A program made the position numbers and the translations under genes. DNA of 64,000 bases from Rhodobacteraceae bacterium IMCC1909 (GTDB lineage Bacteria > Pseudomonadota > Alphaproteobacteria > Rhodobacterales > Rhodobacteraceae), in NCBI GenBank assembly GCA_030704425.1, contig JAPDHM010000001.1, positions 992,001-1,056,000 of the forward strand, written 5' to 3'. The stretch's first letter is position 1. Each line of letters begins with the position of its first letter. The notes beneath the pieces were generated by a model, which saw nothing but the letters and a program-made list of their open reading frames with translations, ran no database searches and had not been told where the DNA came from. This document shows positions 4,366-46,796 of this stretch, piece by piece.

Positions 4366-6012
4366 TTAGGCTGCAAAGCCCCATTTATAAATTTGAGGCA
4401 GATAAGCGATATGCATATCACAGCCAACAAGGCCCTCAACATGGTGCCTCTGCACATAGCGCCAATAAGGCTGACAGGTCACACCCTCCTCTATGATTAG
4501 GGCTTGGATTTTGCCCATCACAACCCGACGCTCATCGGCATTGGCCAAGGAGTTGGCTTCCGCAAGCAATGCATCGAACTCGGCGTTGCTCCACGCAAAC
4601 TCATTCCAAGCTTCGCCAGAACGATAGGCCAGACCTAGAACTTGAGTACCCAATGGACGGTGGTTCCAGTTTGTGGCTGAGTAAGGAAATTTTGCCCAGT
4701 CGTTCCAGAATGTGCTACCTGGCATCAAAGTCCGTTTCACTTTGATCCCTGCATCACGCAACTGTGCGGCGACCGCATCACAGGTGTCTTTCCAGAAGCC
4801 TGTGTCGAGCGAGCGCAGTTCGTGCTCAAAATCGGCATGGCCCGATGCATCCATGAGCTCTTTGGCTTTGGCTGGATCGTAGGGCATCCGTGTGACTGAT
4901 GGGTCATGCTCTGGGTGAATTGGACCTACGTGACAGTTGTCTGCCGCAACGCCGAGACTGGCGTTGCCCAGCTCATTAATGACTTCATTATCCACAGCCA
5001 TGGCCAAGGCCTGGCGCACCATTTTGTTGTCATACGGCGCGTGATCTTGGTTTGGACGCACAACGATGGTCGCTCCAGAAGCCACCTGTGATTTTACGAG
5101 GCCGAGCGCATCAAATAACTCAACGAATTCACCTGTGGTTTCCCAGTTCAGGTCAAACTCTTCTGATTCAAAGCCTGCCATGTGGGTCGCAGGATCGGAG
5201 CCATAGTCAATGAATTCAATCCGATCAAGGTGACCGCCTTTACCCGCGGCATAGCCCCACCATTCAAAGCCCTCATTGCGGACAATAGAGGCTTTCACGC
5301 CAACTTCCCATTCGTCAGGCAGCATGAAGCCTGTGCCGACTGGGTTTGACAGAGCTGTCTCAACGGTGAAGGACTTATGTACGATTTGTGCAGGGTAGTC
5401 GGCCATGCCGGGCACAATAGTAATGTCGGGCTGCAAAAGGTTCAGCTGAACGGTGTTTTGGTCTACTACCACCACTGCGCCTTCGCGAGCTTTGCCCGTG
5501 TCCGCATCCACCAAGGATGCCATGCGGCCGGCCATGGAGTTGCCTTCAAGGCTCTTGTCACACCAGCCGATGATGTTGCGTGCAACATCTTCTGCGGTGA
5601 AATCGTCGCCATTGTTCCACTTTACGCCTTCACGCACCTTCAAAGTGTATTGTGTGGCATTCGCATTCGCTTCCCAGCTGGTCAGCAGCATTGGCTCAAA
5701 GGATCCGTCGCTGTTGTACTCAACAAGATACTCAAGCCAACCGGCTGACACGATCGAAATCTGCGTCCAGTCATGGGTGCGCGGATCTTTGAATGCTTTT
5801 ACATCCATTTGCATCCGGATCGTACCGCCTTTTTTCGCGTGGCCTCCCGCTTGGGCCGGAGTGTCGAGGCCTAGCAAGCCGTAAGCCGCAACGGTTGTTA
5901 CACCCAAGGCCGTTGCGCGCGACAAGAATTCACGACGGTCAAGCTTGCCGTCCTTCACTTCTTGCGCGTACATCTTTGCAGCTGGATGCATGAAATTGTT
6001 TTTTTGGGTCAT
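4366..6012 (-). CDS. Peptide-type ABC transporter substrate-binding protein (Tat signal)
   Basis: This is a periplasmic solute-binding protein of the SBP_bac_5 family, 548 aa. I chose ATG 6012, not the upstream in-frame codon at 6111, because AGGGAG lies seven bases before it and the N-terminus then gives a clean twin-arginine signal ([15 protein letters not shown], residues 24-38) followed by a hydrophobic stretch and AQA. The mature part has the family pattern, with [18 protein letters not shown] around residue 110. It is first in the operon with both permeases and the fused ATPase. The ligand (peptide or another compound) is not determined. Confidence 0.9.
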
Positions 6013-6365
6013 GTGTTTCTCCCTGTGACACCGTACGTCATAACAGATTGTGCTCTGGGCCACTTGTGCGACCTTCTCAACGCAAACTGACTGTCGCCCA
6101 TACATGCCCATATTGGGCCATAGGTCAATGTAAAATTTCGCGGAAAATAGCGCAAAACCGACGTTTTAACTTCGTTTTAACTGCGACTTTTGCCTTCACA
6201 TTCGACGAAACTTCAGAGGAATTTTTTTCCCAATGTGCTGTTAAATAAGAGGAGACATGGCTTTTTGCCGGTTAGGTTTCCTGTTTTGATGGCTGAAAGG
6301 ATTGGGAAATGCTGCGATTTTGTTGTGTCGGCTTCGTCGCACTGGTCTATTTGCGACATTGCGCG
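6013..6365. other. Intergenic region between the binding-protein operon and miaA
   Basis: This 353-base stretch contains no convincing gene. It holds the promoter region of the leftward ABC operon and is rich in A/T between 6130 and 6250. I see no repeat or RNA signature. Confidence 0.5.
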
Positions 6366-19022: not shown

Positions 19023-20159
19023 TCATTCACGGGTGATCCAACCACCGCCCAAAACCCGGCTGCCATCGGGATCATAGAAAACGCAAGCCTGGCCCGGCGC
19101 CACACCCTCTTCGGCCATCATGAGCTCTACCACCGCTTCGGTTTCCGACAACGGGCGCAGGACCGCGTCGCGTGGCGGGCGGGTGGAGCGGACTTTTGCG
19201 GCGATGCTCCATTCGGCTTGGTCGGTCAAAGGCCTGTCGCCAAGCCAATTGACTTCCTTAAGGCGCACTTGCCGTGTCGCCAGCATCTCTTTCGGTCCAA
19301 CCACCACATGCCGGTTTTCGATATCCAAGCGGACCACATAGATTGGATCAGTCAATCCACCGATGCCAAGACCGCGTCGTTGGCCAATGGTATAGTGGAT
19401 AATGCCCTCATGGGTTCCCAGAACATTGCCGCTCTGATCGACAATGTCACCCGGTTGTGCCGAGCCTGGATGTAGCTTTTCAATGACCGCCGCGTAGTTA
19501 CCATCTGGTACAAAGCAAATATCTTGGCTGTCAGGTTTATCGGCCACACCAAGGCCGTATTTGCTCGCCAGAGCGCGCGTTTCAGCCTTGGAGGTCAAAT
19601 GCCCCAGTGGGAATCTCAGATATTCAAGCTGCTCTATCGTGGTTGAAAATAGAAAATAACTTTGATCGCGATTGTGATCTGCGGCCATATGCAATTGCGC
19701 ACCCGTTGCGCCGACTTTGCGTTGGATGTAATGGCCCGTGGCCATGCAATCTGCGTCAAGATCTTTGGCCGTTTGCAACAAATCTTTGAATTTCACACGC
19801 TCATTGCAGCGAATACAGGGCACGGGTGTCGCCCCAGCCAGGTAACTTTCGGCAAAATCGCCGATAACCGCTTCGCGAAATTTATTCTCATAGTCCAAAA
19901 CATAATGCGGAAAATTGAGCTCTTCCGCCACGCGGCGCGCGTCGTGAATGTCGCGGCCAGCGCAGCATGCACCCTTTTTAGCGAGTGCTGCTCCATGGTC
20001 ATAAAGTTGGAGCGTAATGCCAACAACATCATAGCCTTGCGCCGCCAATTCGGCCGCAACAACCGAGCTATCAACCCCGCCTGACATGGCAACAACCACC
20101 CGCGTGTCTTCCGGCGCCTTGGCAAAACCAAGGGAATTTAAAGGGGTTTTATGGCTCAT
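19023..20159 (-). CDS. mnmA: tRNA-specific 2-thiouridylase
   Basis: MnmA puts sulfur on C2 of the wobble uridine in tRNA-Lys, -Glu and -Gln. The 378-aa protein has the PP-loop [15 protein letters not shown] near residue 24, a first catalytic cysteine in [13 protein letters not shown] near 117, and a second in [10 protein letters not shown] near 215. It runs leftward and converges on lpxB; sciP lies on the other side in the opposite direction. Confidence 0.96.
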
Positions 20160-20270
20160 GGGAGGTGCTCGGTCCTGCAGAATTTAGCTGAACTATAATA
20201 ACAAAAATGGCGCGCTTCACAATACTTTAAGTGCTTTGCGGTCCATTGGCCGCGAGAAAGGAGCCTGCAC

Positions 20271-20555
20271 TTGCATATTCGCAAGGTTCGCGGTCCACGC
20301 ATGGTTCAATTGCCTGATGGCGGATATTTGAGCCGTGGCGACCTGCCGCCACCTACGACAAAACGCTGGGTCGCCTCGCGCAAGGCGACTGTCTTGAAAG
20401 CCGTGCGTTTTGGACTGATTTCATTCGAGGAGGCCTGTAGCCTCTACGACTTGACCCAAGATGAATACAGCAGCTGGCAAACTGCTGTGGCCCGGCACGG
20501 GGAGTCAGCGCTGCGCGCCACGGCGTTGAAAAAGTATCGCCAATTTGATCAATAG
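20271..20555 (+). CDS. sciP: CtrA inhibitor SciP (DUF1153)
   Basis: SciP is a small helix-turn-helix protein that in Caulobacter binds CtrA and blocks transcription from CtrA-activated promoters. The 94-aa chain matches the DUF1153 family: VRGPRMVQLPDGG at the N-terminus, RADLPPPTTRRWVASRKA-like residues at 23-41, and the helix-turn-helix FGLISFEEACSLYDLTQDEY. The start is TTG 20271, supported by AAAGGAG seven bases upstream. It is intact although the adjacent ctrA is broken, so its function here is unclear. Confidence 0.9.
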   Translation: MHIRKVRGPRMVQLPDGGYLSRGDLPPPTTKRWVASRKATVLKAVRFGLISFEEACSLYDLTQDEYSSWQTAVARHGESALRATALKKYRQFDQ

Positions 20556-20635
20556 TTTACAGAATTAGTGTTTATGAGTAACATTAAATTAACCAGTTTA
20601 TTTCAGGATGTATTTAGCTGTTATTGGGGATTTTT

Positions 20636-21346
20636 ATGCGAATACTTTTGATTGAAGATGATCCTGCCACGTCGAAAAATATTGAACTCATGCTGGGGCA
20701 TGCGAATTTCAACGTCTACACGACGGATCGAGGGGAAGAGGCATTGATTTGGCCAAACTCTATGATTACGACCTGATTTTGTCGACTTGGTTTTGCCTGA
20801 CATTAATGGGCATGATGTGTTGCGCCAGTTGCGTGTTCCTTGGATTGATACGCCGATTTCGATCCTGTCTGGCGAGATCGACACTTAGAATAAAATGCGC
20901 GGATTTGGCTCTGATGCGGTTGATTATCTGACCAAACCGTTTCACCGGGAGGAATTGATCGCACGGATTCACGCGATCTTTCGCCGCTCGAAAGGGCATT
21001 CGCAATCCATCATCAAGACAGGCGATATAGAGGTGAATTTGGACGGAAAACCGTGGAAGTGCGCGGGAATACTATGCATCTGACCGGTAAGGAATATCAA
21101 ATGCTGGAGCTGTTGAGCCTGCGCAAAGGCACGTCACTTACTAAGGAAATGTTCTTAAACCATCTCTACGGTGGTATGGATGAGCCAGAGCTAAAAATCA
21201 TTGATGTATTCATTTGTAAATTGAGAAAGAAATTAAGTGAAGCCACTGGGCGCGAAGATCACATCGAAACCGTTTGGGCGCGCGGATATGTGTTGCGTGA
21301 CCCAAAGCCTGATGATGCGGCGCAAGATATGGCGATTTCGGCCTAA
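20636..21346 (+). pseudogene. ctrA: ctrA response regulator, broken by three frameshifts and one stop codon
   Basis: CtrA is the cell-cycle response regulator of alphaproteobacteria. Joining the frames gives an almost complete Ctr[21 protein letters not shown], then [69 protein letters not shown] and GYVLRDP. One base is missing near 20745, another near 20781 (just before the phospho-acceptor aspartate) and a third in the A-run near 21050. TAG at 20886-20888 replaces an expected glutamate codon. Each lesion alone would destroy the protein. The C-terminal DNA-binding half is open from about 21053, but a separate start is not evident. Sequencing error is possible but unlikely, because flanking genes are clean. 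Confidence 0.88.
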
Positions 21347-21569: not shown

Positions 21570-25804
<4,235 letters not shown>

Positions 25805-26090: not shown

Positions 26091-27122
26091 TTAAAGGCAG
26101 AGGACAGGTTTTTTGTTCTTCTTGTGACGCGCGATCAGCTGCCGCTGCTGGCGGTTTTCGGGGCAAAGCGCGGCCAAGCGGTGCTGGCTTGGTGCGGTCA
26201 TCAGTTCTGGAAATATAGCAAACAGCTCGGCGCGGGCGGCTGAGGAGATGCATTTCAGGGCCTCTGTGCCGGTATGCAGGCTCTCGCAGGGCGCACCATT
26301 GGCAAATATCACCTCATGTTGATCAAATAAGAGGTGAATATATGTCACTTCGGTGCAATCTGTGTCGATATGAATCCCCGACAAATCTATGAGCTTTACC
26401 GCGGCAATCAAGCAGTCCTGGGTTCCAAACATGCGCTGATTGATGGGCGATAACACCAAAACCCGATGTTGGCGGAATAGGCGTAGGGGCTCACGACGCA
26501 GACCCTGGCCAAAAGGCACCGATGGAAATTTCAATAGGTCTAAATCTGTCTTTGGGGAAATAGGGTGCCAGTTTTAAGGATCTTTTCCCAATCTATCGGA
26601 TGGTTTGTGCACCATGGTGCCGGGTGTTGACCAGATCGCCTACATGGAGCGTTTCCACGCGCTTTGCACCGGATGGGGTGTCAATCCAGGTTACCGCACG
26701 AAAACACAGCGTATTTTGCTGCACGATCTGTGCATAGGGCATAGGATCGCCCAGAGAGAAGTTCGAAAGGCTGTAGGTCACCCCATCCGTTAGATCTTGC
26801 GTGAAAAGCAAGTACCCCTCCACTTGAGACGGCGCGATCATGCGCCAAACGAGAAAGCTTGATCCGTCCGAACCCGTGACCGTCCAAGACCCACCTACTC
26901 TTGCGTTGTTATTGTGGATGATGCCCTTTAGCGATTTTAGCAGTTCTAAGCTGGTATCCGTGAGTGTCAGCTCTGCATCATTATCGGTAAACACGAGTGT
27001 TTCGATTTGCCTATTTGCTTTGTCATAGGTGAACGATCCTGTGCTTCCAAAAGTGAATCCACCTCCCCCCTAAAAACATTGGGTGCAGTGCCATCGATCG
27101 CATGCAGAGTATGGTCGGGCAT
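26091..27122 (-). pseudogene. Hint-domain (Hedgehog/intein-type) protein, degraded
   Basis: The original gene began at ATG 27122 (MPDHTLHAIDGTAPNVF) and ended at 26091. An indel near 27070 breaks the N-terminal part. The Hint domain starts with CFRAVTWIDTPSGAKRVETL; there the usual CFxxGT glycine is replaced by valine. A TAG at about 26597 replaces a tryptophan after GAQTIR. An extra T near 26517 shifts the frame before GQGLRREPLRLFRQHRVLVL and the Hint C-terminal part. Hint_2 proteins of this type are common, often in several copies, in Rhodobacteraceae; their function is poorly known. Confidence 0.85.
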
Positions 27123-33448: not shown

Positions 33449-33592
33449 AATGCGTAGCAGAATTGTAGCAGAGGCAGTATGTGTTGACGTTATGGTTGAG
33501 CGATTTTAGCATAATGATAGCGTTTTAGGCTACTATTGGAGTGCGCTGTTGGCGTTTTTTGAAGACAAAAGGGAGCGGGACAAGGCGATGTC

Positions 33593-33772
33593 GTGACCAC
33601 TAGGGATGAGGCTTGGATATATGTCCAGAGAGTGATCGGAGAGGTAATAGCTCTACTAAACGACTTTGGTACGCCGCCATTTGTTTTTGAGCGGATTTTT
33701 AGCAGTCCGTACGATTATCAATTTACAGAGGCTGAGGTGGTCGAACTGGCTACACTTACTAGTTTAGATTAG
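33593..33772 (+). CDS. Small hypothetical protein
   Basis: An open frame from GTG 33593 to TAG 33770-33772 encodes 59 aa (MTTRDEAWIYVQRVIGEV and onward), acidic and soluble-looking, with LLNDFGTPPFVFERIF in the middle. AAGG lies nine bases upstream. I recognise no family. It is the first possible gene of the accessory region; codon use cannot prove it. Confidence 0.4.
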   Translation: MTTRDEAWIYVQRVIGEVIALLNDFGTPPFVFERIFSSPYDYQFTEAEVVELATLTSLD

Positions 33773-34012
33773 ATTTGAGTTGGCAGGCGATTAGAAGGCT
33801 TCAGAGTTGTATTGATCTAGCACAAAACACTCAAGTCGCAAATATAGCGGCGTCCCAAGCAGACGCATGCATTTCAAGTTTTCAGTAAATACTTTTAGCT
33901 AGCAATAGCTGAATTCCAAAGAGTTCCGACTTTTAGTGGGAGGCAAATAGGGGGGCATTAAATTAAATGATATAGATTTATATAATTAATTTAGAGATTC
34001 ATATAAATTATT

Positions 34013-34032
34013 TGGCCGAGAGACAGGGACTC
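34013..34032 (-). repeat. Partial att-like copy of the tRNA-Ser 3' end
   Basis: Eighteen of 20 bases match the 3' end of tRNA-Ser at 41452-41471, including the complement of CCA, in the same orientation. A copy of the tRNA 3' end at the far end of a block lying on the tRNA's 3' side is the normal trace of integration by a tyrosine recombinase. The integrase itself is not present in this block. Confidence 0.5.
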
Positions 34033-34093
34033 TTGTATAATTTTATTAAATAATTGGTATTAAAAAGATATCTTTTGTCTCTCTCTGAATTTT

Positions 34094-34129
34094 AGGGTCC
34101 ATTATAGGGTCCAGTGTAGGGTCTATTAT
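34094..34129 (+). repeat. Three 12-base tandem repeats
   Basis: The units agggtccattat, agggtccagtgt and agggtctattat follow one another directly. They lie 60 bases from the att-like fragment. They could be integrase or excisionase arm sites; this is inference. Confidence 0.55.
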
Positions 34130-34159
34130 GTGTTCTCTAAGGTCAACTCCAGCAACGAA

Positions 34160-34210
34160 AGCCCAGCGCCCCAAGACTAATACCCTTGCTTGCTTGGGAT
34201 GACACCTTTG
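34160..34210 (+). repeat. Left arm of 51-base direct repeat flanking the sulfatase gene
   Basis: The 51 bases match 36071-36121 at 44 positions without gaps, in the same orientation. The frame LAWDD(T/S)F is readable in both copies, so the repeat may derive from a coding sequence. Confidence 0.7.
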
Positions 34211-34553
34211 ACGCCACCTCTAGGATCAACGACATCACCCTCTCTTCGTGGGATCAAGTGTATGTCCGCATGGAAGAACCTTCACTCTAATTCTTTCGTG
34301 CCTTCCTCGTTAAGACAGTTTTAGAAAATTAGTGGCAGCAATTAAGGGCGGAAAGTCAGCAGCCTAGTATCAGGTTTCAAGTGCAACAAAGCGTTATAAC
34401 GAAGGTAAAAGTAAGATGAGACGGAATATCTTAGGTTTTATATGATACACCTACAGAGGCGACTATACTTGATTGCGCCTCTTGAGTGTATAGAGGAGGG
34501 GTATATTCATGATCTAGATCTACATAACTCATCAAGCCAATCCGAGGATCATT

Positions 34554-36071
34554 ATGACAGAGCGGCCAAATATCATCTTCATCATGGCAGACGATCACGC
34601 CTCCAAAGCGATCAGTGCTTATGGGTATGGCATAAATAAAACTCCTAACATCGACAGATTGGCTAATGAAGGAGCAAGGTTGGACCATTGTTATGTCACA
34701 AATTCAATCTGTACTCCAAGTAGAGCTGCAATATTAACAGGCACTTATAACCATGTAAATTGCGTGACTACACTCGATACACCTATTAATAGTCGCCTAC
34801 CTAATGTAGCCAAACACCTCCAGAGTAATGGATATCAGACGGCTATAATTGGAAAATGGCATTTAGGTGAAGGTAAAGAACACGAGCCATCAGGCTTTGA
34901 TTTTTGGTCCGTTTTGCCGGGCCAAGGTGATTATTTCGACCCTCACTTCATTCAGATGGGTGAAGAAATAGAAGCTGAAGGCTATGCAACGGATATAATA
35001 ACGGACAAATCTTTGACATGGTTGAAATCTCTTGATCAGGGCAAGCCATTCTTTTTGATGTGTCATCACAAAGCACCGCATCGTGAGTGGGAACCCAATC
35101 CCAAATATAGAGATTTGTTTGCAGATGAGATCGCCATTCCCGACACTTTCAATGACGACTATAAAAATAGAGCTAAAGCAGCTGCAGCTGCGAAAATGCG
35201 AATTAAAGACGATATTACTTATGACGACTTAGGACTAGTACAGCCAGAGGGTGGTTCAGAAATAGGAGAAAGAGCGAGGAGAAAAAGCAATCGCCGTAAA
35301 ATCCCAAATCCGAGTAATGTTTCAGATATAAGACTTATTGACAAACACACAGGTGAAATATTCCAATTTAATACGCCTGAGGAGTTTCATAACTTCAAAT
35401 ATCAAAGGTATTTGCAGCGATATTTGGCAACAATTGCATCTATCGACGATAGCGTTGGTGAAATACTTCAGTTTTTGGATGACAATAACTTGGCCGAAAA
35501 TACGATAGTTGTTTATACATCAGACCAAGGTTTCTTCCTCGGTGAACACGGCTGGTTTGATAAAAGGTTTATTTACGAAGAGTCCTTTCAAATGCCCTTT
35601 TTGGTGCGTTACCCAGCTAAAATTAGACCGGGTCAGGTCAACAAAGATATTTGTTGTAACGTAGATTTTGCCCCCACATTCCTTGATTATACCGATACTG
35701 TTATTCCATCTTACATGCAGGGGCTAAGTTTGCGGCCGTTGTTCGAAGGAAAGACCCCTAAAGATTGGCCTCAAATTGCGTATCATCGATACTGGATGCA
35801 CAAAGATCCAGACCATAATGCTTTCGCTCACTATGGGGTCCGCAATCGAAGATACAAATTAATCTATTGGTATAATGAAGGCTTTGATCTACCAGGCACA
35901 AACGATGGTGGAGAAAATAAAGAATGGGAATTATTTGACTGCCAAGAGGATCCAATGGAGCTTTTTAATCTTTACAACGACCACCGCTATCAAGGTGTGG
36001 TTTTAGAGATGAAACAACTGCTTGAAGACAAGATGCTCAGTATCGGTGACCTGATGGAGCACACTGGTTAA
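34554..36071 (+). CDS. Type I sulfatase
   Basis: This 505-aa enzyme of the formylglycine sulfatase family hydrolyses sulfate esters. The metal site MADDHASKAISAYG is at residues 11-24. CTPSR at residues 53-57 carries the cysteine that must be oxidised to formylglycine by a separate maturase. GKWHLG near residue 101 and HGWFDKRFIYEESF near 330 are further family blocks. No signal peptide is visible, so it may be cytoplasmic. The gene is AT-rich compared with the core genome and is flanked by direct repeats, which suggests transfer. The substrate is unknown. Confidence 0.93.
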   Translation: MTERPNIIFIMADDHASKAISAYGYGINKTPNIDRLANEGARLDHCYVTNSICTPSRAAILTGTYNHVNCVTTLDTPINSRLPNVAKHLQSNGYQTAIIGKWHLGEGKEHEPSGFDFWSVLPGQGDYFDPHFIQMGEEIEAEGYATDIITDKSLTWLKSLDQGKPFFLMCHHKAPHREWEPNPKYRDLFADEIAIPDTFNDDYKNRAKAAAAAKMRIKDDITYDDLGLVQPEGGSEIGERARRKSNRRKIPNPSNVSDIRLIDKHTGEIFQFNTPEEFHNFKYQRYLQRYLATIASIDDSVGEILQFLDDNNLAENTIVVYTSDQGFFLGEHGWFDKRFIYEESFQMPFLVRYPAKIRPGQVNKDICCNVDFAPTFLDYTDTVIPSYMQGLSLRPLFEGKTPKDWPQIAYHRYWMHKDPDHNAFAHYGVRNRRYKLIYWYNEGFDLPGTNDGGENKEWELFDCQEDPMELFNLYNDHRYQGVVLEMKQLLEDKMLSIGDLMEHTG

Positions 36072-36121
36072 GCTCAGCGCCTGAAGTCTAACACCCGTGC
36101 TTGCTTGGGATGACAGCTTTG
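36071..36121 (+). repeat. Right arm of direct repeat flanking the sulfatase gene
   Basis: This is the partner of 34160-34210. It begins exactly at the last base of the sulfatase stop codon, so the repeat encloses the gene and about 340 bases upstream. Confidence 0.7.
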
Positions 36122-36389
36122 TGGTTTGCGGTATGATCGTGGATGAGATGCGGATGTGGGTACGACAAATCTCTATTTCCTCGAGTCATGGGAGAGGGGG
36201 ATAACTAAAGTTCCTCACTTAAGTTGATAACGACAAACAGGTATCTTTATAAATTACGACACTCAAACGATAAATGGTTCGCTGAACCGTGATTTCATTT
36301 GTGACCTTGTTGAGACAGAAAACGGTGAACTCGAATTTGCAATCGACACAGAAGCAACTGAGGTTTCAAATGAACTTATACTACTGCGC
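36122..36389. other. Intergenic sequence before the winged-helix gene
   Basis: The frame of the following gene is open back to about 36229 (FINYDTQTINGSLNRDFICD and onward) without an ATG, GTG or TTG. Either the start was lost or an unusual start is used. Confidence 0.4.
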
Positions 36390-36623
36390 ATGATCGCGCA
36401 GTGTGATAGGAATCCTACCGTCCGATATTTTGCATCTAAACTAGGCTGGTCTACCGGCAAGGTAAGCAAAAACCTTAAAGTTTTGCGGGAGGAAGAAGGA
36501 GCTATATTGAAGGAATGCTATACGCTGACCAAACGGGGTGAGTTCTTATTACATGAAACTTACCCAAGTGGCTTTCCAGAGCCTCAAGGGTATCGTGAAT
36601 ATAACGACAACTCGCCTTTTTAG
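36390..36623 (+). CDS. Winged-helix DNA-binding protein, possibly N-terminally damaged
   Basis: From ATG 36390 the gene encodes 77 aa with a MarR-like winged helix: MIAQCDRNPTVRYFASKLGW, then STGKVSKNLKVLREEEGAIL, then a wing TLTKRGEFLL. The coding frame continues upstream for about 50 more codons with protein-like composition (ETENGELEFAIDTEATEV) but without a normal start, so the true protein may be longer or the gene may be a remnant. A cluster of GTTCA/TGAAC sites follows directly and could be its targets. Confidence 0.5.
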   Translation: MIAQCDRNPTVRYFASKLGWSTGKVSKNLKVLREEEGAILKECYTLTKRGEFLLHETYPSGFPEPQGYREYNDNSPF

Positions 36624-36689
36624 TGTTCACACCCTCTAACCTAGATGAACATCTTCTATAAATGTAATAAATTACAATTAGTTAATGGC

Positions 36690-36704
36690 GTTCAAGAAAT
36701 GTTC
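36690..36704 (+). promoter_or_regulatory. LexA-box-like motif GTTC-N7-GTTC
   Basis: GTTCAAGAAATGTTC fits the alphaproteobacterial LexA operator. It lies among other GTTCA sites and far from any clear start codon, so it may instead belong to the neighbouring winged-helix regulator. Confidence 0.35.
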
Positions 36705-36723
36705 ACCCTTTAATAGCCACCTA

Positions 36724-36764
36724 TGTTCAGTTCATCCCCCCGTTAGGGGGGTGAACAAGTGAAC
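36724..36764. repeat. Large inverted repeat with C6/G6 core
   Basis: The core GTTCATCCCCCC and GGGGGGTGAAC pair across GTTA with one bulged base, and outer TGTTC/GAACA arms extend it. No T-run follows, so it is not a simple terminator. Confidence 0.55.
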
Positions 36765-36830
36765 AGTTATACAACTGGTTCCTATCCTTTTGGCCTAAAT
36801 ATGACCTACCCACGTATTCATATCTCTCAG

Positions 36831-36960
36831 CCAAAAAACGTTTCCCAAAAACATGGCCCAAGGCCCGCGGCCCGCGAAGGCCCACCCACTATCTGTCGAG
36901 CAAACCCAAACAAACCAGATCGAACGTCGCCGATCACCGCACGGGCCCCTAAGGTTTTAT
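36831..36960 (+). repeat. Dispersed repeat, copy A
   Basis: It begins ccaaaaaacgtttcccaaaa, contains a GC-rich palindromic part (ggcccgcggcccgcg) and ends near gggcccctaaggtttt. Copy B at 41108-41238 matches strongly at both ends; the middle diverges. Confidence 0.7.
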
Positions 36961-37144
36961 TTAGTTCCAGAATATATGGTCCCACTTTCATTTGAACCGC
37001 GTGGTAGTCCCAGAGCATTAGTATTTTGTACCTCCTATCATTCACTTGGGCTAATCTCCGCGCTGTTTCACCGCACACAAACGCGACGATAATGTCGGTT
37101 TCTGGCGCGTAATTAGCTGCTCAAAAGACTTTAATCCTGAAGGA

Positions 37145-38116
37145 ATGAGGGATTGGTATTTAATTGTGTTCTACTCTTTAATGCTGAATAAATTAAAAGC
37201 ACAGAGCTCCACGGCCTCTGGCAACCTGAATTGCATGGTGGCGGTAGGGTTGTTTTCTTTTGGCTTTCCAGCGGCAAATAGCCTTTTAGAAACATGGGGT
37301 ATCATTTCCCTTATTACCTTGAGAAATTTATTAGGACTAATTTTTTTAGTTGGGATAATGGCCTTAACTTTGGGCGCTGCTTCACTGAGCCAACTGCCTT
37401 GGAGGAAAGGCTTTTGGATTGGTTTTTTTGGCTTTGGCATTGGTTCGATGCTCCTGCTGCTTTCACAATCAATGACAAATGCAGTGACTGCCGCTCTGGC
37501 CGCTGCCACTATGCCAATATGTGCAGTGGCGCTTGAAGTGGCCCTTGACGGCAAGCGCCTTACTTTAAGGTTTCTAATCGGCGTGGCCCTTGTCGTATTA
37601 GGCGGTTTGACTGCCTCTGGCATTCAATTTGGCGATTTTCAATTCGGATTAGGCTTCTTGATTGGATTATGTGCCTCCTCACTTTTTGCTTGGGGTTCGC
37701 GAGCAACGGTCAAGGGATTTCCGGAATTGACACCTCTTGCAAGGACCACCGTTACAACCCTCGGTATGACGGGTTTCTGCGCGTTTGTGTTCTTTGGGGC
37801 GCTCATTTTCAAAATGCCGGGCACAAGCATTCCGACGCTAACCGACAATGATTTAATTTTACTATTGATTTATGCTTGGTGCGCACTCGGGCTTTCTCAA
37901 TGGATTTGGATTCGTGGAGTTGGTCAGGTTGGGATCGGCGTGGCCTCTTTTCATCTTAATGCGGCGCCATTTTATGTGATGTTGATTATGTTAGTCTTTG
38001 GATATGGTTGGAGTTGGCTACAAGCTATTGGTGCCTGTATTCTGGCAGTCGGTGTGATTATGGCTCAAAGTCAACCCAACCGAAATAGTGCGGCAAAATC
38101 AACCCACTCACCGTAA
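37145..38116 (+). CDS. DMT/EamA family transporter
   Basis: This 323-aa integral membrane protein has about ten hydrophobic segments in two EamA halves, the drug/metabolite transporter pattern. The second half contains GLCASSLFAWGSRATVKG near residue 180. It ends with a short hydrophilic tail. The start is uncertain: ATG 37145 has AAGGA immediately before it, too close for an ideal site, and ATG 37181 is an alternative that still keeps all helices. The substrate cannot be predicted. Base composition is lower in G+C than the core genes. Confidence 0.85.
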   Translation: MRDWYLIVFYSLMLNKLKAQSSTASGNLNCMVAVGLFSFGFPAANSLLETWGIISLITLRNLLGLIFLVGIMALTLGAASLSQLPWRKGFWIGFFGFGIGSMLLLLSQSMTNAVTAALAAATMPICAVALEVALDGKRLTLRFLIGVALVVLGGLTASGIQFGDFQFGLGFLIGLCASSLFAWGSRATVKGFPELTPLARTTVTTLGMTGFCAFVFFGALIFKMPGTSIPTLTDNDLILLLIYAWCALGLSQWIWIRGVGQVGIGVASFHLNAAPFYVMLIMLVFGYGWSWLQAIGACILAVGVIMAQSQPNRNSAAKSTHSP

Positions 38117-38680
38117 AGCATTGAGGCGCGAAATTATCCCTATCCCCTAACTCTAGAAAACGTGAAACTACTGATAAAACCAAAATAAATTAAAACAATA
38201 CTTTAATAATCTTGGGATAGGTTACATAGAATTCCTATTTTCTTAAGTTCAATCTCAGCACCCCGCAGTGCTTGGCGCGTTGGCCGCGCAGCGGGGTCAC
38301 TGGTGCAATGCAGAACTCTTGATTGAAGAAAAACTATTTAAGCCGCCTGACCTGTTAGCCGAAGCGGTTACAATGTATCGATACCTCCGAGCCGCGAAAC
38401 GTTTGCCAAAAACATGGCCCAAGGCCCGTGGTCCGAGACGCGGGGCCTTATGATATGGGGGCCCGGTCCGTGGTCCTTCACCCTTGGTCTGTCTGGATTG
38501 GCCTAAGTAACCCCCGCCGCTGGCAGCCCAGCGCCACGCGGCAAAAGTCGGGCGTCGGGTTATGGGGGAGCTAAAGCGTATCGAACGACAGCCTCAAAAA
38601 CCTGCTCAAAATAACCTATTTTGAGTCAAAGCTAAAAACCGGTTTGGTTAGTAGTTAAAAGTTGGGGTGATATAGATTCG
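38117..38680. other. Non-coding region with possible gene remnant and repeat copy C
   Basis: A frame from GTG 38268 to 38453 (AEAVTMYRYLRAAKRLPKTW and onward) has protein-like composition and overlaps the dispersed repeat, but I cannot assign it. A perfect 9-base inverted repeat, CTCAAAATA-ACC-TATTTTGAG, lies at 38605-38625. Confidence 0.4.
38395..38450 (+). repeat. Dispersed repeat, partial copy C
   Basis: The stretch aaacgtttgccaaaaacatg, followed by gcccaaggcccgtgg, matches the left end of copies A and B. The right end is missing. Confidence 0.6.
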
Positions 38681-39190
38681 TCAGGGACATACGTTCTCGC
38701 GAAATTCTGCATAAGCGTAACACAGCGCAGGCCCTGAGAATTCAAAATGTTTTATTACAAATTCAAACCAAGGTGCATCTTCAGACCAATGACAATAGGC
38801 TCTGTGTTCATAGTTTTCATAACGCTCCTCGGTTGTTTGTTCGAATATTATATAAAGGTTATCTGAAAACCATCCGGGTTTTTTGATCCGTACTTCCCAC
38901 TTGCTTGGCTTTGGTCGCTGCACTCCAATACCATAATAACGCGAGTTAATATCTTGTGACTTATGACCATAGCGGTTGACTAACATACTGCAGTACTGAA
39001 TTTTATCTTGCGTCGCTGTACCATCTCCATAAGGTGGTGGTGCAGCTAACACTGGCGTGTAAACTAAATATAACAACGACACCCATTTAAGTAGATACTT
39101 CCGATGCTGCAAACTAGCCATTAAATTGCAAACAGCGGCAAGCAGCTCGTTTTCCTTTATCCAATAGATCAAGCCATCCGTTTTTATCAT
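38681..39190 (-). CDS. Hypothetical secreted protein coupled to the ZorB-like gene
   Basis: This 169-aa product starts two bases after the stop of the ZorB-like gene. An internal ATG at 39121 would give a cleaner signal peptide (MASLQHRKYLLKWVSLLYL, cleavage near VLAAPPP), but the start at 39190 has GGAG upstream and fits translational coupling. The mature part has five cysteines and many aromatic residues (YCSMLVNRYGHK, EHRAYCHWSEDAPWFEF). I recognise no family. Confidence 0.6.
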   Translation of the reverse strand: MIKTDGLIYWIKENELLAAVCNLMASLQHRKYLLKWVSLLYLVYTPVLAAPPPYGDGTATQDKIQYCSMLVNRYGHKSQDINSRYYGIGVQRPKPSKWEVRIKKPGWFSDNLYIIFEQTTEERYENYEHRAYCHWSEDAPWFEFVIKHFEFSGPALCYAYAEFRENVCP

Positions 39191-39192
39191 GA

Positions 39193-39882
39193 CTATTTGC
39201 TATGCTCCCAAGGTTTCTTGAGTGAAAAACGAAAATCTATCCGTCTATTTTTAGCGTCATCAGTCGGTTTGGAATGCTCAATCAAGGGCTGCGTGTCCCC
39301 ATAGCCCACTGGTACGAATACTTTTGCAACAGTTTTGGTGATGACGTCATCAGTTTTGTCTAGAATTTGCTTAACTGAGGCTGCTCTTAGCAAAGACAAA
39401 TCTACGTTATTGCGTATTCCATTTCTGGCTCTAAATGGCACGTTGTCGGTATGTCCCTCTACAAAAACGTGATCTATTTCGGAAATAAATCCATCAATAC
39501 ATAGTTCCGTGTTAGCTAGCTGTTGCGGTTCGCATTTGATGGCCGCGTCAATCGAAGCAGACACCTTTGATATTGTTGAAATTGATTCCGATTCTAACTT
39601 ATGCTGGCCAGCAGTAAAGCCAAGCTGATCGGACGAGATGGAAATCGTGCCACCCTTGATATTTACTTCATGGCGAATACCGTTCTTTAAAAGATTATCG
39701 CTGACCGTGCGAATGATATATGATTTTTTGAGCTCTAAATCAGACATCTGTTGCCCCAGACTTTGAGCTAAATCCTTATTTGAACTGAAGTTTATGATGT
39801 AAGCTATTAGCGTGATGATAAATACAAAAAGCATTGCTGTCATTAAATCGCTTAGAGCCTGATAGTTTTCATCTTCGTTCAT
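39193..39882 (-). CDS. MotB/OmpA-type membrane protein, Zorya ZorB-like
   Basis: This 229-aa protein has one membrane helix at residues 14-33 preceded by SDLMTAML, where the aspartate matches the proton-path residue of MotB-type proteins, and a C-terminal OmpA peptidoglycan-binding domain (HVFVEGHTDNVPF near residue 139, LSLLRAASVKQIL, NRRIDFRF). This layout is that of ZorB, the stator-like anchor of Zorya anti-phage systems, which works with the MotA-like ZorA. Its ATG overlaps the end of an upstream frame (ATGA) whose rest is missing. Other MotB/OmpA families remain possible. Confidence 0.72.
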   Translation of the reverse strand: MNEDENYQALSDLMTAMLFVFIITLIAYIINFSSNKDLAQSLGQQMSDLELKKSYIIRTVSDNLLKNGIRHEVNIKGGTISISSDQLGFTAGQHKLESESISTISKVSASIDAAIKCEPQQLANTELCIDGFISEIDHVFVEGHTDNVPFRARNGIRNNVDLSLLRAASVKQILDKTDDVITKTVAKVFVPVGYGDTQPLIEHSKPTDDAKNRRIDFRFSLKKPWEHSK

Positions 39883-39974
39883 TGCTTCGGCTCACTGAAT
39901 TTCTTCAGTTCTAGAATTAGTGTGTCGAGGCTCAATTTAAGACCCAAGTCTGGTGCCTCCGCACGGGGAAACTT
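39879..39974 (-). pseudogene. C-terminal remnant of the gene upstream of the ZorB-like gene (possible zorA)
   Basis: A frame of 31 codons (PDLGLKLSLDTLILELKKF and onward) ends with TGA overlapping the ATG of the ZorB-like gene, as expected for the preceding operon partner. It has a stop directly before it and no start. By position it should be ZorA, but so short a tail cannot be identified by sequence. Confidence 0.45.
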
Positions 39975-40025
39975 TTATCTTCACTAAAAGGCATCATCAT
40001 ATTTGTTTAACATCTGACTAATGTT

Positions 40026-40922
40026 TTAAGTACCACGGAATATCTCATTTCTATGAAAAGCCATATATGTAACCTGCTTGCTAGACAGTGGTTTTTTGAT
40101 AGCAGGATTATTCAGGTTCCATGCTGCTACTACATCAGCCGGCAGCAATGGGCTAAACATAAGTTGGCCACTGTCTTCAAATGAGATGTAACCACGGTCA
40201 AACAGGCGGTCCACGTGTGGCGATAACAACAAGCCATTGTTACCATCTACCTTTTCAAAATCGTTACTCTTTACCCATGGTTTTATATGACTAGCCGTCA
40301 AAAATCTCTTATCCGTGATACCGGTTACGCGGCATCCATCCTCATGCCTTTCTAAATTGCTTCTGTACTGGCCCTGTCCAACCCGAGACCGTACGAGTTG
40401 GTATTTCTCGGTTATATCAATGTCTGTTCTGTTTTTGATTTCACGTTCTTGGCCTTCTTCAATTGTTATATTTGATTGGTGGCCTACCAAAGATAATAAA
40501 ACGGTGGCCATTGGCTTTGAAATTTCAGCCAAATAAACTTGATTTCCACCACCGTCTACTCGGATCGGCGAGTATCGCTCTGGAAGTAACGGCCCCAAAA
40601 TATCCATGTGATCTTTAGGCTTCAGAGGATTACTAATTTCCTCATAATCAACCTGTACCAACCACCCATCAGTATCCCATGCGTCTCCAGCTTTTCCAAA
40701 CTCCTTCGGCTTTTCCGAGGAACGGACGGGCGCTGATATCACCCCCACTGTCTTGATCAAGGTGTCCGAAAAAGAAAATACAATATCTCCCACACCAGTT
40801 TCTGTCATATTTTTGTAGAACTGATTAAAGCCCCCATCCTTATTGGACTTGGGAGACCACATATAACCACCACCTACTTCTGCTTTATAAGTTTTGTTTT
40901 GATTAACCCACCAGTAGCGCAA
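40026..40922 (-). CDS. HNH endonuclease with EVE-like N-terminal domain
   Basis: This 298-aa protein resembles modification-dependent restriction enzymes. The N-terminus (MRYWWVNQNKTYKAEVGGGY) looks like an EVE/PUA-like domain that reads modified bases. The C-terminal half has an HNH_2 nuclease: CRVTGITDKRFLTASHIKPW, then NGLLLSPHVDRLFDRGYISF. It lies upstream of the ZorB-like gene on the same strand; type II Zorya also carries an HNH protein (ZorE), but the EVE-HNH layout points more to a type IV restriction enzyme. Probably part of an anti-phage locus. Confidence 0.82.
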   Translation of the reverse strand: MRYWWVNQNKTYKAEVGGGYMWSPKSNKDGGFNQFYKNMTETGVGDIVFSFSDTLIKTVGVISAPVRSSEKPKEFGKAGDAWDTDGWLVQVDYEEISNPLKPKDHMDILGPLLPERYSPIRVDGGGNQVYLAEISKPMATVLLSLVGHQSNITIEEGQEREIKNRTDIDITEKYQLVRSRVGQGQYRSNLERHEDGCRVTGITDKRFLTASHIKPWVKSNDFEKVDGNNGLLLSPHVDRLFDRGYISFEDSGQLMFSPLLPADVVAAWNLNNPAIKKPLSSKQVTYMAFHRNEIFRGT

Positions 40923-41451
40923 ATTATCGATCCCATAAAAATAATTATTTTTATCAGAGTTTAGAACTTCATTTTTGTCAAACCATGAGAATAATGCAAA
41001 TAAAAATAATTTAAGATAACCAAAGCGTTGATTTGTTAGTATCCCAAGCCAAACACTCCACCATCTGTCTAAGAAAGCAGAATGAAACTGCTATTCGTAT
41101 CTATTCACCAAAAAACGTTTCCCAAAAACCTAGCCCAAGGCCCGCGGCCCGCGAAGACCCACCCGCGATCTGCTGAGCGAATTCGGAGAACCAAATGAGT
41201 TGACTTCAAAAGCGTGACGGGCCCCTGAGGTTTTTTGGCTGGCTGCTTACTAAATGCCACTACTGCCAGCGCACACTACAATAATCCTCAAGCTGTACAG
41301 TAAACTCACCTACCAATTTTAATGATGGTCGCATCTGACCCTTAACACACGAGCTCTATTTTAATCTGATGTTTTGTGGTGGGTAGAATGGTGGGTATAA
41401 ATTTAAATAAATATTAATAAGACATTAAAACAATTACTTAATGTGTAAATG
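40923..41451. other. Intergenic region containing repeat copy B
   Basis: No gene is visible between the HNH gene and tRNA-Ser. AT-rich stretches flank the GC-rich repeat. Confidence 0.5.
41108..41238 (+). repeat. Dispersed repeat, copy B
   Basis: The first 60 bases match copy A (36831) almost perfectly, and the end gacgggcccctgaggttttt matches the end of copy A. Both copies have the same length (about 130 bases). Confidence 0.7.
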
Positions 41452-41541
41452 TGGCAGAGAGACAGGGATTCGAACCCTGGGTACCCTTGCAGGTACAACG
41501 GATTTCGAATCCGTCCCGTTCGACCACTCCGGCACCTCTCC
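41452..41541 (-). tRNA. tRNA-Ser(CGA)
   Basis: This 90-base gene on the minus strand includes the CCA end. Acceptor GGAGAGG, D stem CCG/CGG, anticodon stem ACGGA/TCCGT with loop TTCGAAA (anticodon CGA, reads UCG), a long variable arm (TACCTGCAAGGGTA) and T arm CAGGGTTCGAATCCCTG are all present. The long variable arm confirms serine. Mobile DNA lies on both sides. Confidence 0.95.
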
Positions 41542-42398
41542 GCACATGAAGTTTGCCTTCAAGTGACGTTCTCATATCAAACGGATTCTGAAATGCAACG
41601 CAAAAAGCATAGGGTTTGTGCGCGTGTAGTGGCTTGGCTTAGACGCTGGCAAGGTGACAGCAGTATCGATGCGCCTTGGGGTAAAATATCAATATCGTCT
41701 AGTAATCTGGAGGATGAAAAGACCCGTCTATCCTCCAATGGTCTTAAAACAGCGCCCGCTGATGCCAACCGTGTGCAGCAAGTGTGACGTAGAGCGTGGA
41801 CTAGTAATTTGCATCAGGTCATGGGCCACTGTTTATGCCTATGGTTACTTATACAATCTTAAAGAGAGCCTGTTTTTATGTGAAATCCGAATGTTTAGAC
41901 CACTTTTAGGTATAAATGCTTTTCTCGAAAGTTAATTTTTTCAAAACAGAATAGATTTTGTGATAAAGAAATATCAAAAAAACAGTAGAGAAAATAGGAA
42001 TGTTATCCTCAATCTAAATTACTGCACCCAATATAATCATTAGTCTAGAACTGGTTAAATATACCCCCGGAAACCCCTATGTATATGGTTTAGGCGTTAA
42101 AAGACGGTAAAAAGTGCCGCCGCGGGCCAAATCAGGGCAGGGGTAGAGCCTGAGGGGGCCGATACCGTTATACCTAATCCCCCTAAATCGGCCTCAGACT
42201 TACAGTTAAACCTATAGTTAGCACCTAAGATAAGTTATCTTCTTCTGGTGCCCCCAATAACGGCAAAACCTAAAGGCGTCTGGTCACGCGAGTTGTCTTA
42301 TAGGTTTGCTAATTTTTCCGGGGTTCATATTGGATTTGATTTGGTTGAAAATTAATGCAATGAAGCTTGCGGCAACTGTCAAAAATGGTGGTAAGACA
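41542..42398. other. Leader region of the right-hand island, non-coding
   Basis: Short frames exist but none is convincing. Between 42120 and 42205 GC-rich sequence can fold (CTGAGG...CCGAT with ATCGGCCTCAG). At 42211-42225 lies the first cctatagtnanyacc motif that recurs later in the island. Confidence 0.45.
42211..42225 (+). promoter_or_regulatory. Recurring cctatagt motif, copy 1
   Basis: The sequence cctatagttagcacc resembles cctatagtcactacc (44758) and cctatagtcaccacc (46782). It lies 190 bases before rpsU. Possibly a promoter for a phage RNA polymerase. Confidence 0.35.
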
Positions 42399-42599
42399 AT
42401 GCAAGTAAGTGTTCGTGATAATAATGTTGACCAAGCTCTTAGGGCCTTGAAAAAAAAGCTGCAACGGGAAGGTGTGTATCGTGAAATGAAGCTCAAGCAG
42501 CATTTCGAAAAACCATCTGAGAAAAAGGCTCGTCAGGCAAAAGAAGGACTTAGCCGTCAACGTAAACTTGCGCGTAAAAAAGCTGAAAAAGAGGGCTGA
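42399..42599 (+). CDS. rpsU: 30S ribosomal protein S21 (bS21)
   Basis: This 66-aa protein starts at ATG 42399 ([20 protein letters not shown]). The conserved bS21 core [20 protein letters not shown] is followed by a basic tail ([12 protein letters not shown]). bS21 sits next to the anti-Shine-Dalgarno of 16S rRNA and affects initiation. Its location inside a phage-derived island is unusual. The sequence is close to what I know of chromosomal alphaproteobacterial bS21, so it may be a captured host gene or the only copy; this window cannot tell. Confidence 0.93.
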
Positions 42600-42779
42600 T
42601 TATTCCGTATATTAAGCTAAAAGTAGCGCTGTTTAAAACTTGATGGCATATGCTAAGCTCAGTTTATAGACTTTGGACGTCTGCTATCACCGCGAGCGAT
42701 TAGCCAAATCAGCTGCATGTACTGTTTGGTGAAATGAGCGTGGTTTTTTAATTAGAACCCTAAAGGTAAAGGATTTACG

Positions 42780-43016
42780 ATGACTTGTCTTTTTGTGCAA
42801 ATACGTTGTCGGCCCGGCACTGCCTATGAAGTCGCGGCGCAAATCGTCATGCGTGAAATTCATTCAGAGCTTTATTCCACCAGTGGTGATTTTGATTTGA
42901 TGATGAAACTTTATGTGTCAAATGGCGAGGATATTGGCATGTTTATAAATGACAATTTGCTCAATATTGACGGCATAGAGCGCACTTACACGATTCAAAC
43001 TTTTAAAGCGTTTTGA
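42780..43016 (+). CDS. Stand-alone Lrp/AsnC ligand-binding (RAM) domain protein
   Basis: This 78-aa protein consists only of the alpha/beta effector-binding domain of Lrp/AsnC regulators: VQIRCRPGTAYEVAAQI at the N-terminus and SGDFDLMMKLYV near residue 35, then GIERTYTIQTFKAF. There is no helix-turn-helix. Such proteins may modulate full-length Lrp proteins or bind amino acids. AAAGGA precedes the start. The gene may be older host DNA within the island. Confidence 0.85.
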   Translation: MTCLFVQIRCRPGTAYEVAAQIVMREIHSELYSTSGDFDLMMKLYVSNGEDIGMFINDNLLNIDGIERTYTIQTFKAF

Positions 43017-43046
43017 TGAACAGAATATATTTAGGTGGAGATTCCA

Positions 43047-43130
43047 ATGAAACCCACGTTAGCTTGCATCGTGCTTGTTGTTGCTATTTCACCCAGTGAC
43101 TTCGTCTCAAAACTCCTTGAATTAATATAA
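43047..43130 (+). CDS. Possible 27-aa hydrophobic peptide
   Basis: A short frame (MKPTLACIVLVVAISPSDFV and onward) with AGGTGGAG seven to ten bases upstream could encode a small membrane peptide. It is too short to be sure. Confidence 0.3.
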   Translation: MKPTLACIVLVVAISPSDFVSKLLELI

Positions 43131-43175
43131 AAGTGGTCTCCACCCAAGCTTATAGTTGGGCTTATGACTGTGGTG

Positions 43176-43316
43176 TCATTTTTTGTTTAAAACTCCAAAT
43201 TCTATGAGAATGCTGGGCGTCAGTATCCAGTACATTTTTAAGAGCAGGGCAAGACCAAGCGTAAGGATTAGCAATGCGCTGACGATAAGCCATCTTTTGG
43301 TCTGTACGGGTAGCAT
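43176..43316 (-). CDS. Small single-pass membrane protein, copy 1
   Basis: This 46-aa frame (MLPVQTKRWLIVSALLILTL and onward, with LTPSIL near residue 32) is homologous to the 39-aa frame at 45919-46038: both have QTKRWLIVSA, a leucine-rich membrane helix, LGLALL and TPSIL. The shared protein sequence despite many silent differences supports real coding. Its place after a terminase unit suggests a phage-derived membrane protein; function unknown. Confidence 0.65.
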   Translation of the reverse strand: MLPVQTKRWLIVSALLILTLGLALLLKMYWILTPSILIEFGVLNKK

Positions 43317-43554
43317 AGTGTGAACCTAGCGCATTACTGTAGGTTCGAAAATGATAGAGGAGAGACAAAGACATTAAGAATTTTGGATGAGGGTCAAAAA
43401 TTCCGTATTTTTAAGACAAATTTGTGTCATTATTTAGCATAATGCTAATTTTGACATTTTGAGTGGGCCATATTGTTTTGTAATAACGATGGGGTTGTAT
43501 TTTGACCCCAAGTATTTGGTCGATATACCTCGTCTTCCAGCCCAAGCGGAGCAT

Positions 43555-43833
43555 GGGGGGATTTTTGCCCGAGACCATTATACGTAAACCCCTGACATTT
43601 TTCGGCCTAAATTATCGGCGGTATACTTTAAACTGCTTAAGGGCTGCACAACTATTCATAGTTTGCCTTTTTGATTGGCGCATTGCCAGAATTTTATTTG
43701 CCTCACATCTAAACCATAAAAAAACTCCAGATATACCTTCGAGGGTATAACTCTGTAACCCCCATTTCTGGGTCACTTATAGGGTGTACTGGCCAGCTTA
43801 CTCTAAATGAGTGGCTGGCTTTTTTTTCTTGAA
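43555..43833 (+). repeat. Duplicated intergenic segment R1
   Basis: This segment is colinear with 46253-46534, with long identical stretches such as tatactttaaactgcttaag. It ends with a hairpin terminator. Together with flanking genes it shows a tandem duplication. Confidence 0.85.
43792..43827 (+). terminator. Rho-independent terminator in R1
   Basis: GCCAGC and GCTGGC, extended inside by ACTC/GAGT, form a long stem followed by eight T. An identical hairpin is at 46491-46528. No convincing plus-strand gene lies directly before it. Confidence 0.75.
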
Positions 43834-43996
43834 GTTACCGGATGTCGAGCCAGTTATTGTTATAGAGTGGCTTCTGGCCATTTTCCTCTTTGGAGGAGGA
43901 ATAGCGTTTATTGGGTGGTCAATGCTGGTCCAAGGATGGCCACCCACTGTGGTTAAACGCAACGAGTTGGTCATCCGCCCCTACATTTTTAAGTAG
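43829..43996 (+). CDS. Possible small membrane protein
   Basis: A frame from TTG 43829 encodes about 55 aa with one hydrophobic segment (VIVIEWLLAIFLFGGGIAFI). The equivalent frame in the duplicated segment (about 46532 on) is stopped after ten codons, so either this is a real gene with a decayed copy or a chance frame. Confidence 0.3.
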   Translation: MKLPDVEPVIVIEWLLAIFLFGGGIAFIGWSMLVQGWPPTVVKRNELVIRPYIFK

Positions 43997-44023
43997 AATA
44001 ATTTTTATTTGACAGTCCACAAC

Positions 44024-44506
44024 ATGTGGCATCACAATGAGCTAAAAATATGTAGCAAAAACCTTTGGAATGCGAGGCTAGTTTTGCTTAAAGACAAAGA
44101 AAACAAATGGGCCGATTGGGCGGATTGGTACAAAATAATAACGATTGGTGAAAAAGGGCTATTAATTGCTATAGCGTTTTTGACCGCCTATGCAGTTGTG
44201 TTAGAAATCAGTGTAATTTTAACTGAACGTACGGTTAAACTTACAGATTTGTTGCTTTTGTTTATATATGCGGAAGTTCTCGGCATGATAGCTGCATTTT
44301 ATAAGTATCGAAAAATTCCTATCACCGTTCCGATTTTCATAGCTATAACGGCGCTTTGCCGACTAATTATTTTGCAGGGCAAAGGAATTAACACCATAGA
44401 CCTGCTATATGAAAGTGGCGCAGTTTTGTTGTTAGCAATCTCGGCATTAGTTATTCGTTGGAACTTGATTAATCTGGTGCGGCCAAAAGACAATGACGAG
44501 ACCTAA
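44024..44506 (+). CDS. PsiE family membrane protein
   Basis: This 160-aa protein has four hydrophobic segments and resembles the phosphate-starvation-inducible PsiE family: FIYAEVLGMIAAFYKYRKIP near residue 85, then FIAITALCRLIILQGKG. I use ATG 44024; a TTG at 44009 is possible. It is found only in one of the two duplicated units, so it was inserted into one copy or lost from the other. Its role here is unknown; phosphate-related genes are frequent cargo in marine phages. Confidence 0.75.
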   Translation: MWHHNELKICSKNLWNARLVLLKDKENKWADWADWYKIITIGEKGLLIAIAFLTAYAVVLEISVILTERTVKLTDLLLLFIYAEVLGMIAAFYKYRKIPITVPIFIAITALCRLIILQGKGINTIDLLYESGAVLLLAISALVIRWNLINLVRPKDNDET

Positions 44507-45151: not shown

Positions 45152-45244
45152 GTGAGCTACCACCTCAGATTGGTCTCAAATCTAAAGCCGTCGAAGTAAT
45201 CCAATCTTAATTTCTCCCTGTATAGGTACTAGGAGGAACTTTAC

Positions 45245-45905: not shown

Positions 45906-45918
45906 AATTGGGTAGAAT

Positions 45919-46781: not shown

Positions 46782-46796
46782 CCTATAGTCACCACC
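46782..46796 (+). promoter_or_regulatory. Recurring cctatagt motif, copy 3
   Basis: The sequence cctatagtcaccacc lies 82 bases before the third small gene, with a downstream aggatggtctcaaatg block similar to that before the other small genes. Confidence 0.4.

Follow-up and report, generated by a model that had tools for sequence, protein, structure and literature searches.

The 64,000-nucleotide stretch of DNA analyzed here (the window) very likely captures the CckA-ChpT-CtrA phosphorelay at one stage of its dismantling, in a genome of the genus Planktomarina (RCA cluster), labelled G000 in our survey. Several branches of the genus have a relay that is broken, missing or left only as remnants, and the interest of the locus lies in this repeated dismantling within one marine lineage. 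The first-pass annotation had suggested a rare snapshot, but the case is not an isolated one, the relay having been lost repeatedly in this genus.

The ctrA locus between mnmA and ligA

The nearest relative, G019 (a single contig of 3,288,122 bases), served as the reference with an intact ctrA. The features of the locus, in window positions, are:

19023..20159, minus strand: mnmA, intact upstream neighbour, used as an anchor and for the tree
20257..20263, plus strand: AAAGGAG, resembling a ribosome binding site, before sciP (from the sequence)
20271..20555, plus strand: sciP, 94-codon open frame starting with TTG (NCBIfam NF051866, Pfam PF06627, alignment)
20636..21346, plus strand: ctrA copy, very probably a pseudogene (alignment with intact and broken relatives, open frames, three-frame translation)
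20740..20741, plus strand: lesion 1 of ctrA, one-base loss (alignment with G019)
20781..20782, plus strand: lesion 2 of ctrA, one-base loss between 20781 and 20782 (alignment with G019)
20886..20888, plus strand: lesion 3 of ctrA, in-frame TAG, codon 85 (alignment, three-frame translation)
21047..21050, plus strand: lesion 4 of ctrA, one-base loss within a short A run (alignment with G019)
21053..21346, plus strand: residual open frame in ctrA, 97 codons, GTG start, whole CtrA DNA-binding domain (PF00486, Trans_reg_C, 72 bits)
21597..23717, plus strand: ligA, intact downstream neighbour

In three-frame translation, ctrA runs from the ATG at 20636 to the TAA at 21346 (711 bases), and the three one-base losses and the TAG leave it without a full-length open frame holding both the receiver and the DNA-binding domain. 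Alignment with G019 confirmed these four lesions, which had been proposed from the sequence of the window, and a comparison of close relatives showed that none of them is common to the five aligned (G019, G018, G005, G011 and G013), all four being private to the window lineage among these. The gene is nonetheless orthologous to CtrA: its DNA-binding half is 95% identical to that of G019, whose CtrA reaches 418.7 bits with NF045991, the model for CtrA of the Rhodobacterales (cut-off 350), and the neighbours are alike. The window copy was filed as a ctrA pseudogene, which it very probably is, and not as CtrA. An intact second ctrA elsewhere would have spoken against its loss. The window genome is 99.97% complete and carries 8 Trans_reg_C domains, and a search with the CtrA DNA-binding half found no second ctrA in it, the remaining matches being paralogues of at most 31% identity.

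The remaining relay genes

A search for the partners of CtrA, as the first-pass annotation had advised, revealed that the loss is not limited to this regulator. No CckA orthologue was found in the window genome. At the syntenic site, between rsmB and a sulfotransferase-like gene and beside recA and alaS, about 2.04 kb of the G019 sequence is missing, and about codons 1-90 of cckA remain. Moreover, chpT has lost one base in a C run near its 3' end, and this frameshift leaves the genome without an intact ChpT, although the HPTransfase domain still matches at 36.1 bits. Taken alone, the chpT lesion could be a base-calling slip, since it lies in a C run. With cckA deleted and chpT frameshifted beside the broken ctrA, the whole CckA-ChpT-CtrA relay of the window genome is very probably dead. 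The sulfotransferase-like gene next to the deletion (G000 L201:7328-7915) has an open frame of 121 codons, and its match to the 198 codons of G019 continues beyond it.

Among eleven genomes, the place of cckA holds an intact gene in G010 and a gene in two frames in G019, and the gene is gone in the other nine. Codons 1-90 are left in the window genome, and diverged matches to codons 2-57 and 15-46 are left in G013 and G003, respectively; nothing is left in G018, where the deletion reaches into the sulfotransferase-like gene, nor in G001, G014, G004 and G017. In G005, the contig stops shortly past rsmB. Because the leftovers differ among the genomes, they fit several separate deletions. The cckA of G019 itself (G019:C1:1741988-1744278; L182:8988-11278) lies in two frames of 289 and 467 codons, which is either an error in the record or the onset of a like decay, so that this gene may be non-functional or misread.

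Decay versus sequencing error

The window and G019 share 45,569 alignment columns, of which 33,460 are 95.7% identical with 17 indel openings and 12,109 are 96.6% identical with none. Three of the 17 openings fall within the 0.7-kb ctrA, which exceeds what chance would place there; six lie outside open reading frames of at least 80 codons and eight touch open reading frames of G019. Besides ctrA, the sole gene clearly split by indels is a Hint-domain open reading frame at 26.1-27.0 kb; the remaining indel-touched frames of G019 are, in our judgement, doubtful or start beyond the likely true start. The Hint-domain frame has 341 codons in G019 and lies in two frames in the window (26091-26994).

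The substitutions in ctrA were polarized with G018, G005, G011 and G013 as outgroups. The window branch carries 12 nonsynonymous changes (TAG counted in) and 7 synonymous ones, compared with 0 and 9 on the G019 branch (Fisher p=0.0028; 7 differences unpolarized), so that the branch bearing the lesions also shows the nonsynonymous excess of relaxed selection. These counts point to strong selection on ctrA that was kept in G019 and lifted in the window lineage. With about 9.5 synonymous changes taken for the branch since the split from G019, the constraint was lost over roughly the last third of that time, a figure with a wide error given the small counts. The first-pass annotation's idea of a lineage that had only just lost CtrA is thereby upheld as regards age, the loss being recent in evolutionary terms, but ctrA is not the sole loss, as cckA and chpT were hit too. 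Between G018 and G011, both with an open ctrA, the dN/dS of the gene is 0.259, and values for mnmA, ligA, recG and lpxB in the same pair are only slightly lower (0.095-0.231), a difference that was given no weight as evidence.

Sequencing error is unlikely to have caused the breakage of ctrA because of the nonsynonymous excess on the window branch and its absence on that of G019; as an account of the whole gene, it was rejected on the strength of this excess together with the scarcity of indels elsewhere. It is likewise very unlikely that the one-base losses are sequencing or assembly miscalls and that ctrA is intact in the organism. In favour of miscalls, every loss is a single base and one sits in an A run, the RCA isolates of PMC10675870, among which the window genome may be, were in part sequenced by 454 according to the available portion of that paper, and draft relatives break housekeeping frames (mnmA in G002 and G016, ligA and recG in G014, bamA in G013). 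Against this, the shared columns hold just one other clearly split gene, and neither the TAG, nor the nonsynonymous excess, nor the cckA deletion is an indel miscall. That the isolate mutated in laboratory culture instead of losing the gene in nature is scarcely credible. Single events do split ctrA in G192, G092, G025 and G310, some of which may be cultured strains, and Silicimonas algicola DSM 103371 (L067) has its ctrA split as in G192; however, culture is much too short for four lesions and about a dozen nonsynonymous changes private to this lineage to build up, and the trend is also present in uncultured relatives.

Relay states across the genus

The survey covered 20 genomes of the genus, the window's included; ten of them are only 67-86% complete, which makes single absences weak. 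The ctrA gene is open in seven (G019, G018, G011 and G007-G010), broken in three (G000, G005 and G013), a remnant in G003, where only parts of codons 10-71 and 220-237 are left, and not found in nine. In eight of these nine, the mnmA-ligA interval has no match to ctrA or sciP, and in G015 the contig ends there. CckA was found in five genomes (G019, in two frames, and G007-G010), each with an open ctrA, and ChpT in nine. SciP was found in 11, and the nine genomes without it are exactly the nine without ctrA. No genome combines a broken ctrA with a cckA; in G018 and G011, ctrA is open and a cckA was not found, G011 being 77% complete with the place of its cckA unread. As cckA was found only in five genomes, all of them with an open ctrA, the distribution suggests that the kinase was lost first, an order of losses that rests on few genomes.

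A genus tree was built from MnmA, LigA, RecG and LpxA. It joins G000 and G019 (support 99) and then adds G013, G018, G011 and G005 (100 for all six). A second group consists of G014, G003, G001 and G002, with a support of 95 for the two groups together; it is followed by G012, G016, G017, G004, G015 and G006, whose own joint node has a support of 42. On the assumption that no lost gene came back, the tree implies a minimum of three losses of ctrA, in the window lineage, in the second group and in the third group; the number rises to five if the drafts G005 and G013 truly carry their frame breaks. Frame breaks in drafts call for care, as seen from bamA in G013 and the housekeeping genes in G002, G014 and G016.

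Family-wide distribution and gene order

A sample of 296 genomes of the family, at least 95% complete and evenly drawn, gave a CtrA match at E≤1.7e-59 in 280, the broken copy of the window counted. Of the other 16, nine have no match at 1e-30 and seven have only matches at paralogue level (9.7e-31 to 8.7e-34). SciP is missing in 14 of these 16; it is open in G167, and in G197 it has two TAGs and lies beside degenerate pieces of ctrA. The four next weakest CtrA matches after that of the window (G025, G310, G192 and G092) have ctrA in pieces, all with SciP. In L067 and G192, the frame of ctrA changes near codon 166; the last part of the gene lies about 48 kb away in G092, and its halves are on different contigs in G025 and G310. 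Overall, the loss of CtrA in the family is uncommon yet recurrent.

Genes at this locus usually follow the order mnmA-sciP-ctrA-ligA. MnmA was used to fetch 80 named loci, of which 71 carry at least 215 stop-free codons of ctrA, each of them together with sciP. Of the nine remaining loci, four (L030, L094, L100 and L105) lack both genes; sciP is also missing from L099, which keeps pieces of ctrA. At the L107 locus sciP stands alone, and in L067, L078 and L102 it accompanies a split or partial ctrA.

SciP and the residual DNA-binding frame

SciP is known from Caulobacter to bind and inhibit CtrA. The SciP of the window scores 118.7 bits against NF051866 ("CtrA inhibitor SciP", cut-off 100) over residues 4-90 of 94 and 120.9 bits against PF06627 (DUF1153), above the curated cut-offs, and its gene occupies the usual site by ctrA. 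It differs from the usual SciP in that its partner is broken and in its start codon, which is TTG in the window and ATG in the five relatives (G019, G018, G005, G011 and G013). The full frame given in the earlier annotation was confirmed, as was a sequence resembling a ribosome binding site before it; the TTG start had escaped that annotation. The dN/dS of sciP between the window and G019 is 0.196, which places it 27th in ascending order among 35 neighbouring genes, and three nonsynonymous changes (start codon included) fall on the window branch and two on that of G019, with four unpolarized; these values show neither clear constraint nor clear decay. In the relatives, sciP ends four codons early in G005 and lies in two frames in G013.

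A SciP beside a dead ctrA had been expected to be either new in function or next to decay. The joint absence of both genes (SciP is missing where ctrA is gone in 9/9 genus and 14/16 family genomes) favours the latter, a new function being less likely, and we read the window SciP as a probable leftover. Counter to this reading, G167, G003 and L107 have SciP without a full ctrA. It is rather unlikely that SciP persists because it has a task independent of CtrA, as a small regulator that itself binds DNA, for which speak the open frame with its ribosome binding site, the open SciP of G167 (99% complete, 2 contigs) with no CtrA match, the SciP of G003 beside a ctrA remnant and the sciP of L107 at a locus without ctrA. 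Such a task fits poorly with the absences just given and with the wear on the gene, namely the TTG start here, the four last codons lost in G005, the two frames in G013 and the two TAGs in G197. Nor is the SciP of G003, 55% identical to that of the window, any closer than those of other genera (37-62%), despite an MnmA identity of 89%. A further alternative, that the frame at 21053-21346 yields a CtrA reduced to its DNA-binding domain and still acting, for example as a repressor, is highly improbable. The domain is complete by its match to Trans_reg_C, and only three of the 12 private missense codons fall in it, which covers 99 of the 237 codons. However, such numbers are too small to demonstrate constraint, all three (codon 209 among them) hit positions invariant in the five relatives, the fragments left in G003 are parts of both ends of the gene (codons 10-71 and 220-237), and no broken relative was seen to retain just the DNA-binding part.

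Flagella and gene transfer agents

In the Rhodobacterales, the relay serves at its core to control flagellar genes and has gene transfer agents as a conserved target, according to the available portion of PMC12363192. A complete gene transfer agent was detected in none of 87 RCA genomes, as far as the accessible part of PMC10675870 goes.

The flagellar cluster of the window genome (G000:C1:364200-386100; L187:6700 to L188:8600) has 41.6% G+C, compared with 54.0% in the core of the window. Its proteins are 25-70% identical to those of G019 and not orthologous in sequence, the core genomes being 96% identical; its FlgH shares 90% identity with one of two copies in G004, a member of the third group, and 55% with that of G019. 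The cluster encodes a FliA/WhiG-type sigma factor (181.8 bits, below the curated 189.6) and a ParA/MinD-type ATPase, which we take to be FlhG. A candidate for FlhF by position had no Pfam match and is not claimed. Because of the composition of the cluster, the likeness of its FlgH to that of G004 and its own FliA-type sigma factor, this flagellum of foreign composition may not need CtrA. The flagellum may itself be damaged, since flhA, next to which lies an insertion-sequence transposase, is missing about 65 codons at its start. The CtrA box motif, TTAA-N7-TTAA, occurs nowhere in 40 kb around the flagellar genes of the window genome (1.6 expected in base shuffles), once in the 40 kb of G019 and six times in the window.

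FlgH is present in 8 of the 20 genus genomes; it is found in four of the nine without ctrA and missing in five of the seven with an open ctrA. Loss of the flagellum as a simple cause of relay loss was rejected, since no FlgH was found in G007-G010, the four with an unbroken cckA and a retained relay.

Other features of the window

About 18.4 kb of the window (33453-51891) has no counterpart at this site in G019, where about 2.2 kb lies. This part has 43% G+C, compared with 54% in the core, which is close to the 41-44% seen in the third group of the genus, and it encodes a sulfatase (34554-36071) as well as a phage-type integrase lying in two frames (50986-51828). The gene at 4366-6111 has a synonymous divergence of 0.56 from G019, compared with 0.03-0.18 for the other genes counted, at low dN, and looks as if it was replaced by recombination.

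Proposed course of relay loss and its significance

We propose that the relay lost its value as its main tasks in the Rhodobacterales were lost or replaced, there being no complete gene transfer agent in RCA genomes and the flagellar cluster being foreign in composition and encoding a FliA-type sigma factor of its own. In this scheme, the kinase would have gone first; CtrA, left unphosphorylated, would have been useless and decayed, and SciP, an inhibitor without a target, would be a leftover whose decay has begun or is to follow. A bolder version, quite unlikely as a whole, holds that the relay was dismantled repeatedly, kinase first, once horizontally acquired clusters with FliA-type control had taken the place of its flagellum, and that SciP, where kept, is now a DNA-binding regulator in its own right.

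The window genome has the same genes as the CckA-ChpT-CtrA phosphorelay of Phaeobacter inhibens and Dinoroseobacter shibae, described in the available portion of PMC12363192, and its ctrA and sciP occupy the place between mnmA and ligA that is usual in the named loci; it differs in the deletion of cckA, the frameshift in chpT and the lesions of ctrA. The convergent reduction of life-cycle genes in Caulobacterales (PMC12700997, in the part accessible) is alike in being a repeated developmental loss in free-living Alphaproteobacteria, but there holdfast and pili are concerned, and in this marine genus of the Rhodobacterales it is the CtrA relay itself that has gone. No report of the loss of the CtrA relay in Planktomarina, and no paper joining CtrA with this genus, was found in the literature searched (titles and openings of abstracts, most subscription papers being outside its scope).

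Nearly every genome sampled from the family has a clear CtrA match (280/296). A genus with intact, decaying, remnant and missing states allows one to ask in which order the relay is undone and what must change before a master relay can be spared, and it offers natural strains in which motility and division can be measured without CtrA.
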